Assembly: GCA_019359175.1 (NCBI GenBank)
Contig: JAHHHU010000018.1
Coordinates: 1-64,000, forward strand
Length of the DNA stretch: 64,000 nt
Source: Phormidium tanganyikae FI6-MK23
GTDB lineage: Bacteria; Cyanobacteriota; Cyanobacteriia; Leptolyngbyales; Leptolyngbyaceae
Direction: 5' to 3'
Numbering within the stretch: position 1 is the stretch's first letter; each line of letters begins with the position of its first letter. The translations under genes were made by a program, and so were the position numbers. The notes below the pieces were generated by a model that was not told where the DNA came from, did no database searches, and saw nothing but the letters and a program-made list of their open reading frames with translations. Shown piece by piece: positions 36,218 through 41,231 of this stretch.

Positions 36218-36892
36218 ATGAAGAAGATCTTGATTGTCGATGATGATACTGCGCTCCGAACTGCACTGATTCGGTATCTAGAAAAACGCGGGTATGCGGT
36301 GCAAGATGCAGCATCGGGAATCGAGGGACTGAGCCAGTTTGAACAAGATCCGCCAGATTTGGTCGTGTCAGATGTGATCATGCCAAAAATGGACGGGCTA
36401 GAATTCTGTCGCCGTTTACGATCGCTGAGAGCCGGGCAGTTGGTTCCCTTCATTTTTCTCTCCAGCCGCGGCGAAGTCGAAGATCGCGTGCAAGGACATT
36501 CGATCGGCGCAGATGATTATCTGATCAAACCGTTTGAACCTAGAGAATTACTAGCGAAAATCGAAGCGCAACTAGAGCGATCTCGCCGAATGAACTCGGA
36601 GATTATTCGCCTGATGCAGCAATCGGTCAGCGTTCCAGAACCGCCCCCTCCCACAGTCGCACCGCTACCTCTAACACCTGCCGAAGAGAAAGTTTTCTGG
36701 GAAGTGATCCAAGGTCACACGAACAAACAAATCGGTGATCATCTTTTTGTCAGTCCGCGCACAGTACAAACGCATCTGAGCAATATTCTGAGCAAACTGC
36801 AATTAGAAAATCGATCGCAGTTAGTACGCTATGCGTTTGAGAAAGGCTACCGATTACCGATAGAACCCGTGGCAACTGAAGAAAAAGCATGA
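36218..36892 (+). CDS. NarL/FixJ-family response regulator
   Basis: The 224-aa transcription regulator has an N-terminal receiver (about 1-120) with IVDDD, the phosphoacceptor Asp in LVVSDVIMPKMDG (about residue 52) and LIKPFEP, then a linker rich in prolines (VPEPPPPTVAPLPLTPAEE), and a LuxR-type helix-turn-helix (about 150-215) with GHTNKQIGDHLFVSPRTVQTHLSNILSKL (cited as the TVQTHLSNILSKL core). The gene overlaps the next by 4 bp (ATGA), and gun4 follows, so the three are probably one operon. The regulated genes are unknown; the pairing with gun4 suggests a link to tetrapyrrole metabolism, but this is inference. Confidence 0.93.
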   Translation: MKKILIVDDDTALRTALIRYLEKRGYAVQDAASGIEGLSQFEQDPPDLVVSDVIMPKMDGLEFCRRLRSLRAGQLVPFIFLSSRGEVEDRVQGHSIGADDYLIKPFEPRELLAKIEAQLERSRRMNSEIIRLMQQSVSVPEPPPPTVAPLPLTPAEEKVFWEVIQGHTNKQIGDHLFVSPRTVQTHLSNILSKLQLENRSQLVRYAFEKGYRLPIEPVATEEKA

Positions 36893-37400: not shown

Positions 37401-38117
37401 ATGACTAATTTAGAGACTTCTTCAGCCCTCGATCTTCCCGGTAGCATCGCGGCTCTCCAACTGAAGCTTCGATCAGACTCCGAAAAGGTTCAGATCCAAG
37501 CGATCGACGAGCTGACTGCCCTCGGTGAGGAAGGACTTCCCGCGCTGATGGAATTCTTAATTGATCGACCTGAACCCAGTCGAGCCACCGCCAAAACTTA
37601 TCAAATTTTATGCACCTCTCAAACGCCGAGAGTGCAAGAATTTCTGCAACAACATTTCCCGACCGGAACTGTTCCCCTAAAGTCCGATCGCAATATCGAC
37701 TACACCGAACTCCAGCAGCTTCTCGCACAGCAGAAATTTCAAGAAGCCGATCGCTTAACGATTCAAAAACTGTGTGAACTCGCTGGAGAATCTGCCGTAT
37801 TACGCAAATGGCTATATTTCACCGAGGTTGAGAATTTTCCAACTCCCGATCTACAAACGATCGATTCCCTCTGGCTAGCTCATTCTGACTATCAATATGG
37901 CTTCTCGGTACAGCGTCAGATTTGGCTCAATGCAGGCAAAAAATGGGAAAAACTTTGGACTAAAATCGGGTGGAAATCTGGCTATAGCTGGACACGCTAC
38001 CCAGACGGATTTACTTGGAGCCTAGACGCTCCCAAGGGGCATCTCCCACTCTCAAACCAACTGCGAGGAGTCCGCGTCATCGCCGCCTTACTCAACCACT
38101 CTGCCTGGATAAAATAA
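37401..38117 (+). CDS. gun4: Tetrapyrrole-binding protein Gun4
   Basis: Gun4 (238 aa) binds protoporphyrin IX and Mg-protoporphyrin and activates magnesium chelatase in chlorophyll synthesis. The N-terminal half (1-100) is a helical repeat region, and the C-terminal GUN4 core is clearly recognised: DYTELQQLLAQQKFQEAD, CELAGESAVLRKWLYF, TEVENFPTPDLQTID, IGWKSGYSWTRYPDGFTW and QLRGVRVIAALLNHSAW. Length agrees with cyanobacterial Gun4. It lies at the end of a short three-gene run with a response regulator and an RfaE2-like gene. Confidence 0.95.
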   Translation: MTNLETSSALDLPGSIAALQLKLRSDSEKVQIQAIDELTALGEEGLPALMEFLIDRPEPSRATAKTYQILCTSQTPRVQEFLQQHFPTGTVPLKSDRNIDYTELQQLLAQQKFQEADRLTIQKLCELAGESAVLRKWLYFTEVENFPTPDLQTIDSLWLAHSDYQYGFSVQRQIWLNAGKKWEKLWTKIGWKSGYSWTRYPDGFTWSLDAPKGHLPLSNQLRGVRVIAALLNHSAWIK

Positions 38118-38314
38118 CCTTGTCCGTATTCTCGTCAGGACGCATCGCCACAGAACGCCTAAACTTCCGTAATCTCTCTTGCGCGAAAGCGTTGATCCAC
38201 TCAAAAGTAAGGGCAGTCTTTGTATAGTTGCAGACTGTTTGACAGTAATCGTGGGTTACGACACAGTATTGTCAAGTGGTCGAAAAGTTCTTTAAATCGA
38301 GGATAGGGGTTGGA

Positions 38315-39733
38315 ATGGGAATCCCCGAAAACAGGCTCTTTTGTCGATTGGATGGGTTAACGACTGCCGCCCGTGAGCAGCAGCGTGCAATGGTACTGAC
38401 GGAACTCGGCTTGCTCGATACCGAAATTGTACCGATTTTTGAAGAAGCGACCCAAACCGCCGCTCACTCTCTCGGTGCGCCGATTAGTTTGCTCGGTGTG
38501 ATGGATCAGTCGCGTCAATGGTTCAAATCCGCCGTGGGTCTGTCACGCTTGGGTTTGATGAATGATCTGGCGGTCTCTCGCCAACTGTCGCGCGAAGAAG
38601 CTTTCTGCGTTCATGTGGTCGATAGTCAGCAAATTTTAGCGATCGAGGACACGCTCGATCATCCCGCTTTTGCAAATTCGCTGCTGTGTCAACAGTACGG
38701 CATCCGTGCGTATCTCGGTGCGCCGCTGTTAACGGTCAGTGGAGACTGCATCGGCACACTTTGCATCATGGATTCCCGCCCCCGTAACTTTACGGAACGC
38801 GATGCTGAGTTTCTCATGTTGACCGCGCGTTTGAGCATGAGCGAGTATGAACGTCTGCACTTAATGAAGTCGCAGGCAGCCGGAACTCCGATTCCAGCCG
38901 TTCAACCCGCTTTAGCTCCGCCCCCTAACCCGGTTAAGTTTGAACTCCTTGCCCAACTCACTCAAGAGCTACGCACCCCGCTTACCTCTGTGATGGGAAT
39001 GGCAAGCGTGCTCAATCGCGAAATTTATGGCCCGCTCACCAGTAAGCAAAAGGAATATCTCGACATCATTCATCACAGCGGACAGTATTTGCTGTCGCTT
39101 GTGAAAGAGATTCTAGAACTGTCGCAACTTGATGACAGTAGCCGAATGTTGAATCTGTCGCAGATCGATATCGAGATGCTTTGTCAGCAGGCAATCAGCA
39201 CGCTAGAACAAGCCGCTGGTCGTCGAGAACAGCAGATCCGTCTCTCGGTCGAACCCGGCAACCGCATTTGGCTTCTCGACAAAGAGAAAATTCGCCAAAT
39301 GTTGTATCACCTGATGTTTAGCGTGATTCAGTCCTCGAATACTGGCAGCATCGTTCGCCTGCACGTTTCACAAAAAAGCAGCGGGTTACGGCTGACGGTC
39401 TGGGCCTCTCATCCCTGTCTTAGTGATGGCATGGGTTACAACGAAATGCTCATCCCACAAACAAGTGCGATCGCAACGTTTGAGTACGATGCTCCGAGTA
39501 ATGGTCATCGTGCAGGGGCAGGACTCATGCCGATCGCCGCTGCGCTGAACGCCACAAGATTTACCGATCTCGATGAGGCTTCAGAAATTCCTGATGCTGA
39601 TGCGGTACGGAAGAATCTTGGCTTGCTGCTGAGTCGGCAACTGGCAGAAATGCACGGCGGACAAATCCTAATCCAAGGAGCCTCGGAACCCGGATACCGA
39701 TATGTGATTACGCTACCTCGATTAACGCAGTAG
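38315..39733 (+). CDS. GAF-histidine-kinase-like protein with Gln in place of the phosphoacceptor His
   Basis: The 472-aa product (ATG 38315) has an N-terminal GAF-type domain (about 35-190 with SLLGVMDQSRQWFKSAVG and CIMDSRPRNFTERD), a HisKA-like helical region LLAQLTQELRTPLTSVMGMA and a degenerate HATPase_c-like domain. In the H box, normally SHELRTPL, the histidine is replaced by glutamine (TQELRTPL). In the N box (IRQMLYHLMFSVIQSS) the conserved Asn is missing, and no DxGxG motif is present, although the C-terminal ends like a kinase (SRQLAEMHGGQI). It cannot be an ordinary histidine kinase and may instead act as a sensor scaffold or regulate another kinase. A terminator follows it. Confidence 0.88.
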   Translation: MGIPENRLFCRLDGLTTAAREQQRAMVLTELGLLDTEIVPIFEEATQTAAHSLGAPISLLGVMDQSRQWFKSAVGLSRLGLMNDLAVSRQLSREEAFCVHVVDSQQILAIEDTLDHPAFANSLLCQQYGIRAYLGAPLLTVSGDCIGTLCIMDSRPRNFTERDAEFLMLTARLSMSEYERLHLMKSQAAGTPIPAVQPALAPPPNPVKFELLAQLTQELRTPLTSVMGMASVLNREIYGPLTSKQKEYLDIIHHSGQYLLSLVKEILELSQLDDSSRMLNLSQIDIEMLCQQAISTLEQAAGRREQQIRLSVEPGNRIWLLDKEKIRQMLYHLMFSVIQSSNTGSIVRLHVSQKSSGLRLTVWASHPCLSDGMGYNEMLIPQTSAIATFEYDAPSNGHRAGAGLMPIAAALNATRFTDLDEASEIPDADAVRKNLGLLLSRQLAEMHGGQILIQGASEPGYRYVITLPRLTQ

Positions 39734-39769
39734 CCTTGTCAAAACGCCAATATCGCGGATAATAGCCCT

Positions 39770-39791
39770 AGCCCAATCTAAGTTGGGCTAT
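39770..39791 (+). terminator. Terminator after the GAF-kinase-like gene
   Basis: AGCCCAA and TTGGGCT form a 7-bp stem with a 6-nt loop followed by ATTTTTTG. It lies 30-50 bp before the ictB ATG, so it separates the two genes. Confidence 0.8.
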
Positions 39792-39821
39792 TTTTTGCTT
39801 CAAAGCACGGGAAATCCGCTT

Positions 39822-41231
39822 ATGAATTCGGTTTGGCAACAGGTGACGTTATCCACGCTGCCGCTGCGAGAGTGGCGACAGGTGAGCTATGTGTATCGGC
39901 TGGTGGGATCGCTTCAGACCTGGCGACAGCAAAGCTGGTTAATGCAACAAGGAGATGCGATCGCGGCTCTCTTGATCAGTCTCGTTTTTGCTGTTTCTCC
40001 CTTTGTTGCTACGGATCTAATCGGTTGGCTCCTTGCAACCTGCATTCTGTTTTGGTTTTTGCTGACGGTTTCAGACGATGATTCTCGCGCTGGATTCACT
40101 CCAATTCATTTGCTGGTGCTGCTGTTTTGGGGGATTTCGGCAACGGCAGCAGCACTCTCTCCACTGAAGAGATTCGCGTTTGTGGGGTTAGGGAAGCTGT
40201 CGCTGTATTTGATGTTTTTCATATTAATGGCGCGAGTTTTACGATCGCCTAAACTGAGATCGTTCTGTATTACGGCTTTTCTGTTAGTGGCGCTGGTCGT
40301 GAGTAGCTACGGAATTCGGCAGGCGATCTTTGGCGCGGATGCGTTGGCGACGTGGGTTGATCCAGAATCTCCGACCGCACAGTCTACACGGGTGTATAGC
40401 TATTTGGGAAATCCGAATCTACTCGCTGGATATTTGATGCCTGCGGTGTGGCTGTCGTTTAGTGCGATTTTTGTCTGGAAGCGATGGCTCCCGAAAGTTT
40501 TAGCGATCGTCATGTTCGGGATCAATACGGCTTGTTTGTTGCTAACTCAAAGCCGAGGCGGTTGGATTGGGTTGGTCGTATCGGCGTTGGTGCTGATCGT
40601 GTTGCTGCGGTACTGGTGGAGCGCTTATTTGCCGAGATTCTTGCGGCTGTGGGCGTTACCGATGGTATTTGGTGGATTGGCTGGCATTGTGGTACTTGGA
40701 TTTATCTTTGTTACGCCGTTTCGATATCGAGTCGGAAGTATCTTTGCAGGCAGTGGTGATAGTAGTAATGCGTTTCGGCTGAATGTTTGGCGCTCGGTGA
40801 TCGATATGATTCGCGATCGACCCATTTTGGGATTTGGCCCAGGGGATTTGGTGTTCAAGCGAATGTATCCGCTTTATTCACAGGCGCGATTTAGTGCATT
40901 GAGTGCTTATTCGGTGTTGCTAGAGATTGCAGTTGAGTCTGGATTAATTGGTTTAACAGCATTTTTGTGGTTGCTGGTGGTGACATTTAATCAAGGATTT
41001 GTGCAATTGCGACGAGTCAGAGCATTAGGCGATCGAGATGGATTTTGGCTGATTGGAGCAATTACGGCAATGGCAGGAATGTTAGGGCATGGAACAGTCG
41101 ATACGGTTTGGTATCGCCCGGAAGTGAGTGTTCTGTGGTGGCTGAATGTGGCACTGATTGCGAGTTACTACGTGCCACAGGCTGAAGAAAAGCTGCACAC
41201 ACCAACACCGGAGCTTGCAGCAGATTCTTAG
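39822..41231 (+). CDS. ictB: IctB-family membrane protein (O-antigen ligase superfamily)
   Basis: The 469-aa product has about ten to eleven membrane segments, and a large loop with LGNPNLLAGYLMPAVW, LLTQSRGGWIGL and GFGPGDLVFKRMYPLY, typical of the Wzy/RfaL superfamily. Sequence and length match cyanobacterial IctB, first described as a putative inorganic carbon transporter because of a high-CO2-requiring mutant; its true function is disputed, and a role in glycan ligation is also possible. The ATG 39822 is chosen over an upstream TTG. It is followed convergently by a Crp-family gene, leaving only 9 bp between stops. Confidence 0.9.
   Translation: MNSVWQQVTLSTLPLREWRQVSYVYRLVGSLQTWRQQSWLMQQGDAIAALLISLVFAVSPFVATDLIGWLLATCILFWFLLTVSDDDSRAGFTPIHLLVLLFWGISATAAALSPLKRFAFVGLGKLSLYLMFFILMARVLRSPKLRSFCITAFLLVALVVSSYGIRQAIFGADALATWVDPESPTAQSTRVYSYLGNPNLLAGYLMPAVWLSFSAIFVWKRWLPKVLAIVMFGINTACLLLTQSRGGWIGLVVSALVLIVLLRYWWSAYLPRFLRLWALPMVFGGLAGIVVLGFIFVTPFRYRVGSIFAGSGDSSNAFRLNVWRSVIDMIRDRPILGFGPGDLVFKRMYPLYSQARFSALSAYSVLLEIAVESGLIGLTAFLWLLVVTFNQGFVQLRRVRALGDRDGFWLIGAITAMAGMLGHGTVDTVWYRPEVSVLWWLNVALIASYYVPQAEEKLHTPTPELAADS

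Follow-up and report, generated by a model that had tools for sequence, protein, structure and literature searches.

A conserved cyanobacterial GAF-domain pseudo-histidine kinase with glutamine at the phosphoacceptor position

The 64,000-nucleotide stretch that was analysed (the window) carries a pseudo-histidine kinase gene at positions 38,315–39,733 of the forward strand, the strand on which all the window features described here lie. These coordinates include the stop codon and give a product of 472 residues from the ATG at 38,315, which is a candidate start. The mechanically derived open reading frame begins at a GTG at 38,276, with the ATG in frame and the stop ending at 39,733. In tblastn comparisons, the similarity to relatives starts at residues 1–18 of the resulting 485-residue reading in most full-length matches, and the ATG is residue 14 of that reading. 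The sequence AGGATAGGGG stands before the ATG, and the start can be this codon or an upstream one, for example the GTG. Upstream lie a response regulator gene with a receiver domain and a LuxR-type HTH (36,218–36,892; PF00072 and PF00196) and a GUN4-like gene (37,401–38,117; PF05419, 1.2e-63). Downstream lies an IctB-family gene (39,783–41,231; TIGR00947, 565 bits against a cut-off of 366), with a TTG as its mechanical start and an in-frame ATG at 39,822, and a terminator-like hairpin followed by T6 (39,769–39,790) stands between the pseudokinase and IctB-family genes.

An AlphaFold2 model of the pseudokinase (mean pLDDT 81.6, pTM 0.52) and Pfam searches outline its domain architecture. The GAF domain is composed of residues 40–173 (38,432–38,833; PF01590, 1.2e-16) and is modelled at a block pLDDT of 92–98, in agreement with a preliminary description, made from the sequence alone, that had called it well formed. 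The DHp helical hairpin (residues 206–270; 38,930–39,124) matches HisKA (1.4e-17) and comprises helices 206–234 and 243–270 in the model. The CA core (residues 281–369; 39,155–39,421) has modelled secondary structure and is degenerate, with an HATPase_c score of 21.2 bits, under the cut-off of 26.4; among 100 family members scanned, HisKA was detected in all 100 and HATPase_c in 59 at an E-value of 0.001. The F box and ATP lid are replaced by a stretch of variable length that is probably disordered (39,422–39,595; pLDDT below 50 at residues 370–424), and in the model the protein lacks an ordered ATP lid. The description of the C-terminal region as well formed therefore holds for the end of the CA fold, whose final helix and strands are retained (residues 428–468; 39,596–39,718; block pLDDT 77–94), but not for the segment that replaces the lid. 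No receiver domain was detected by Pfam.

The phosphoacceptor histidine is replaced by Gln217 (codon CAA, 38,963–38,965) within the motif TQELRTPL, as had been noted, and the comparison of orthologues then proposed places this glutamine across the family. The column holds 151 Gln, 6 His, 2 Glu, 1 Arg, 1 Ser and 1 Ile in 162 distinct orthologues, the H-box alignment of the Ile sequence (L142) being unsure, and 106 Gln, 5 His and 1 Arg in a narrower set of 112 loci. The orthologue set was reduced from 180 loci to 162 by identity of the last 300 residues, so that near-identical rows stay and Nostocales weigh heavily; two loci without a match over the H box (L133 and L135) were left out. A mutation of this strain was rejected because the glutamine is family-wide. 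Judged from the orthologue codons, Gln and His are separated by a single-base change.

The ATP-site boxes are lost as well, and are rebuilt as motifs of a different kind. The former N box, QMLYHLMFSVIQ (39,296–39,331), has Ser336 at the position of the asparagine, the absence of which had been pointed out; the column is Ser in 132 and Asn in 4 of the 162 orthologues. DxGxG, also described as missing, is absent from the G1 region of the window protein, and the pattern D.G.G occurs between residues 341 and 401 in none of the 162 orthologues; over the whole proteins there is one chance match, early in L165. The box (39,401–39,421) now reads W-x-S-H-P-x-L, with P367 kept in 157, W363 in 150 and H366 in 141 of the 162, and is accompanied in the former ATP pocket by Y331 (155/162), H332 (137/162) and H350, which is also among the conserved replacement residues. 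The preliminary description was to be refuted by orthologues that carry His and function as kinases. At the level of sequence no refutation appeared: all six His-bearing orthologues have degenerate N and G boxes, with neither the N-box Asn nor DxGxG, and His and N-box Asn occur together in none of the 162.

The H box retains ExxT, a phosphatase-type motif (E218 and T221; 38,966–38,977), with both residues kept in 140 of the 162 orthologues. Taken apart, E/D is found in 152 and T/N in 141, as compared with 96 and 75 of 97 distinct control kinase rows. Five orthologues (L115, L134, L138, L139 and L141) form one clade with QKxxI for QExxT, in which ExxT is thus lost while the Gln and the HPWLG motif are kept.

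The protein has a conserved HisKA core, has lost the catalytic residues and is encoded by a gene under selection, which are the marks of a pseudo-histidine kinase; the phosphoacceptor His and the ATP site with N-box Asn and DxGxG, which mark an active HisKA kinase, are absent. The alignments establish the loss of His, N-box Asn and DxGxG as an old, conserved state at the sequence level, and normal autophosphorylation would be impossible. Of the proposal of a non-catalytic sensor scaffold, the non-catalytic part is, as regards kinase activity, well supported by sequence; 'scaffold' is too narrow, because the ExxT kept in 140 orthologues would be compatible with a phosphatase role.

Within the same genome, His is the rule at this column. 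Among 107 kinase domain rows, a set that leaves out the Gln217 protein itself, the H column holds 95 His and 1 Gln, with no residue in 11 rows, and the N column 98 Asn, 1 Ser and 1 Arg, with no residue in 7; the distinct domains with an H column have His in 90 of 91 cases (95 of 96 rows before collapsing). The survey covers 96 of the 98 HisKA matches of the genome, the protein's own included, with two contig-end HisKA fragments left out, and the 60 kinases behind its control profile were selected for intact motifs, which biases it towards typical kinases. When nine loci from other genomes are added and long rows alone are counted, the 102 rows comprise 101 with His and 98 with Asn (as 97 distinct rows, 96 His, 1 Gln and 93 Asn). 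As far as sequence comparison can tell, the Gln of the pseudokinase is not a matter of chance. Two further proteins of this genome, L253 (a 278-residue open reading frame) and L259 (479 residues), combine HisKA and His with altered ATP-site boxes and are possible further pseudokinases; decay of the CA domain alone is therefore not unique to the Gln217 protein. The genome also encodes a second His-to-Gln kinase with DICT, HisKA and HATPase_c domains (L250:1007-2455:-; contig C1, 86,206–87,654, minus strand). All 21 loci of this kinase, its own and those of 20 relatives, have the Gln, and the N-box Asn and the Asp of DxGxG are present in 20 of 20 loci covering those boxes, so that its ATP site is apparently intact, judging by these residues, without a phosphoacceptor. 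It falls outside the Gln217 pseudokinase clade, and strict co-occurrence of the two was rejected, since the DICT kinase is present in two genomes without a pseudokinase match (G009 and G028) and absent from one with a match (G031).

A FastTree phylogeny of the DHp and part of the CA domain, with 154 rows, included 52 of the 161 available family members. These form one clade with a support of 1.0, next to five kinases (L185, L186, L193, L269 and L272; support 0.79). In a FastTree made without the H column, at least ten changes are needed; this tree has a midpoint root and several long branches that meet, and such a count gives no direction by itself. Each His is a single tip amid Gln relatives, and its retention as an ancestral state in some lineages was accordingly not supported. 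The orthologue spans all 472 residues in seven of the seven congeneric genomes searched. Across the class Cyanobacteriia, the scope of the distribution search, a profile at an E-value of 1e-60 matches 194 of 388 genomes and a protein query at 1e-40 matches 195 of 388; with at most four candidates scored per genome, 4 of the 194 have two profile matches and the others one. Named hosts among the best 80 of 462 matches include Nostoc, Calothrix, Tolypothrix, Leptolyngbya, Phormidesmis, Stenomitos and Oculatella, among others. In three loci (L125, L126 and L127; family code f34), only the DHp–CA part matched, in open frames of 298–300 residues, with the GAF domain missing or apart.

Against six congeners, dN/dS is 0.04–0.07 for the whole protein and 0.04–0.09 for the GAF domain, lowest for the DHp domain (0.00–0.011) and highest, among the regions compared, for the lid stretch (0.11–0.28). 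The CA core gives 0.018–0.041 over four computable pairs, so that the DHp lies below both GAF and CA core, although all these ratios are rough because several pairs approach saturation at synonymous sites. G228, M229, G239, K244, Q245, Y248 and S255 are invariant in 162 of 162 orthologues, and T224 is kept in 161; of the seven columns, the six compared (all but G239) vary among 102 other kinase rows. On the pattern of the HK853–RR468 complex, several of the invariant positions presumably lie on the surface facing a regulator. DHp identity is 66 of 66 columns here and 63 of 66 in the one active pair compared, and a constrained DHp is to be expected in active kinases too.

The gene neighbourhood is recurrent in part. 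Of 152 assessable loci, 79 have an IctB-family gene on the same strand no more than 1 kb downstream, and of 142, 39 have a GUN4 gene on the same strand at most 1 kb upstream; 133 loci could be assessed for both genes, of which 19 have the two and 88 at least one. Without the block L055–L111, mostly Nostocales by their titles, the counts are 33 of 99 for IctB and 38 of 91 for GUN4. Hairpins similar to that of the window are found in five congeners, and of the 79 gaps scanned, 6 have a hairpin with a T run ahead of ictB, each of them in the genus of the window; shuffled sequence yields terminator-like sites at least as often as the region does. A simple operon with ictB is doubtful in this genus, given the hairpin. 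Among the assessed loci, no regulator or kinase gene is a general neighbour. Seven loci (L165, L166, L168, L171, L172, L173 and L182) carry a same-strand response-regulator-like stretch that begins 324–574 bases past the orthologue match, OmpR-like by eye in L172. These loci come from another family than the window; their regulator differs from the LuxR-type one of the window and is a possible partner in that lineage.

Among the 50 fold matches listed, the best is 7n0e_B, in which RetS is bound to the DHp of GacS, followed by many RetS chains, with DivL at rank 50; a profile search also matched GacS, RetS and DivL. The query-normalised TM-scores of the RetS and DivL matches are 0.33–0.36, and a shared fold may be all that these matches indicate. 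RetS of Pseudomonas aeruginosa, an inhibitor of GacS, shares with the pseudokinase a HisKA domain with ExxT and a degenerate HATPase domain. RetS is described as keeping its His and having two REC domains, whereas the window protein has Gln, as do most orthologues (His in 6/162), together with a GAF sensor. In the RetS motif HExxT, T428 is reported to be needed for dephosphorylating GacS-P, and RetS is reported also to inhibit GacS autophosphorylation (PMC5992135). The Caulobacter pseudokinase DivL likewise has a replaced His and a retained DHp, with Tyr in place of the Gln found here and with DivK as its partner; as to kinship, the comparison with DivL covers the profile match, the tree being without DivL. 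DivL is reported to bind TNP-ATP weakly and to bind DivK-P, with no kinase or phosphatase activity (PMC4211667). CSK and Hik2 resemble the pseudokinase in joining a GAF sensor to a histidine-kinase core, and the His is lost in plant and green-algal CSK. As these proteins are described, however, CSK keeps its ATP-binding domain and kinase activity, and cyanobacterial Hik2 autophosphorylates on His. Identity with Hik2/CSK was rejected on the ATP site, since the N-box Asn and DxGxG of a conserved ATP-binding domain are gone here; none of the loci was recognised as Hik2. HrmK-like PAS histidine kinases are among the five nearest in the tree and share the DHp signature, but their H, N and G boxes are intact, and L186 has PAS where the pseudokinase has GAF. 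The best NCBIfam match of both the pseudokinase and L186 is HrmK, at 119 and 310 bits, where the cut-off is 725; both lie so far under it that neither is called HrmK.

A similar version of the pseudokinase is kept by about half of the cyanobacterial genomes searched, and it is therefore probably a functioning regulator of other signalling proteins and not a broken gene. We give an even chance to its being a GAF-gated pseudo-histidine kinase whose DHp domain acts on a response regulator or on a second kinase, with RetS as the closest parallel. The output would run through the DHp hairpin, which is intact, has an almost invariant surface and should form dimers. This hairpin would pair with a related active kinase or dock a response regulator, and the GAF domain would tune the strength of the contact. 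The retained ExxT would make a negative output the most likely one, with the partner kinase inhibited, the receiver dephosphorylated, or both, as in the action of RetS on GacS. For DrBphP, a phytochrome kinase homologue, phosphatase activity is described as the sole function (PMC12189002). In Corynebacterium, a ChrS pseudokinase with a frameshift in the CA domain is reported to be accompanied by HrrS–ChrS heterodimers (PMC9491836). By analogy with RetS, DivL and ChrS, cases in which such proteins can work through protein contacts, the Gln217 protein may do the same.

A pure sensor like DivL, which would bind a phosphorylated regulator or a kinase and exert an allosteric effect without phosphatase activity, is a possible but clearly less probable account. 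The replacement of His and the alteration of the ATP site come as a set, DivL itself is a precedent and appears in the fold and profile matches, and the five sequences without ExxT retain their Gln and HPWLG motif; yet ExxT is otherwise widely kept, its last position more often than in the control kinases, although neither observation proves activity. That clade of five offers a natural test of the phosphatase idea. The most committed form of that idea, a GAF-gated dedicated transmitter phosphatase in which the Gln would orient a water molecule on a docked phospho-receiver, and which would stay kinase-dead in order to act solely as an off switch for a pathway, we consider unlikely. In CheZ, a Gln helps to orient water.

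The conserved replacement motifs (Y331-H332, H350 and W363-x-S-H-P) and the recurrence of IctB and GUN4 genes nearby would suit a former ATP pocket turned into a site for another ligand or protein, with an action outside two-component signalling, perhaps in the neighbouring GUN4 and IctB functions. We hold this to be decidedly improbable, as both neighbours occur together in few loci, the terminator-like hairpin precedes ictB in the window and five congeners, and the strongest constraint lies in the DHp. Altered chemistry of the CSK type, in which Ser, Thr or Tyr would be phosphorylated in place of His, in cis or in trans, has parallels in the reported change of the CSK His to Glu in moss and higher plants or to Tyr in green algae (PMC2677595) and in Ser188 as an autophosphorylation site of Arabidopsis CSK (PMC6949291), and the near-invariant T224 could be read in its favour. 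It is nevertheless very unlikely, because the ATP-binding domain is said to be kept in CSK (PMC2677595), while the N-box Asn and DxGxG are gone here and the model shows a disordered lid. The loss of several catalytic motifs could also mark a decaying pseudogene, a reading made barely credible by the conserved replacement motifs, a dN/dS much lower than 1 and the matches in 194 of 388 genomes.

Pseudo-histidine kinases in general are a known kind, and searches of open-licence papers showed none on the Gln217 family. What appears new, at the level of sequence, is the combination of Gln at the His position, rebuilt ATP-site boxes, ExxT and a GAF input in half of the sampled class. Half of these cyanobacteria thus keep a sensor without kinase residues, nearly always as one match per genome. 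Automatic annotation would probably label such a protein a histidine kinase, and a wiring map that includes it among the kinases would be wrong. The constant DHp surface predicts a conserved partner, which can be sought.
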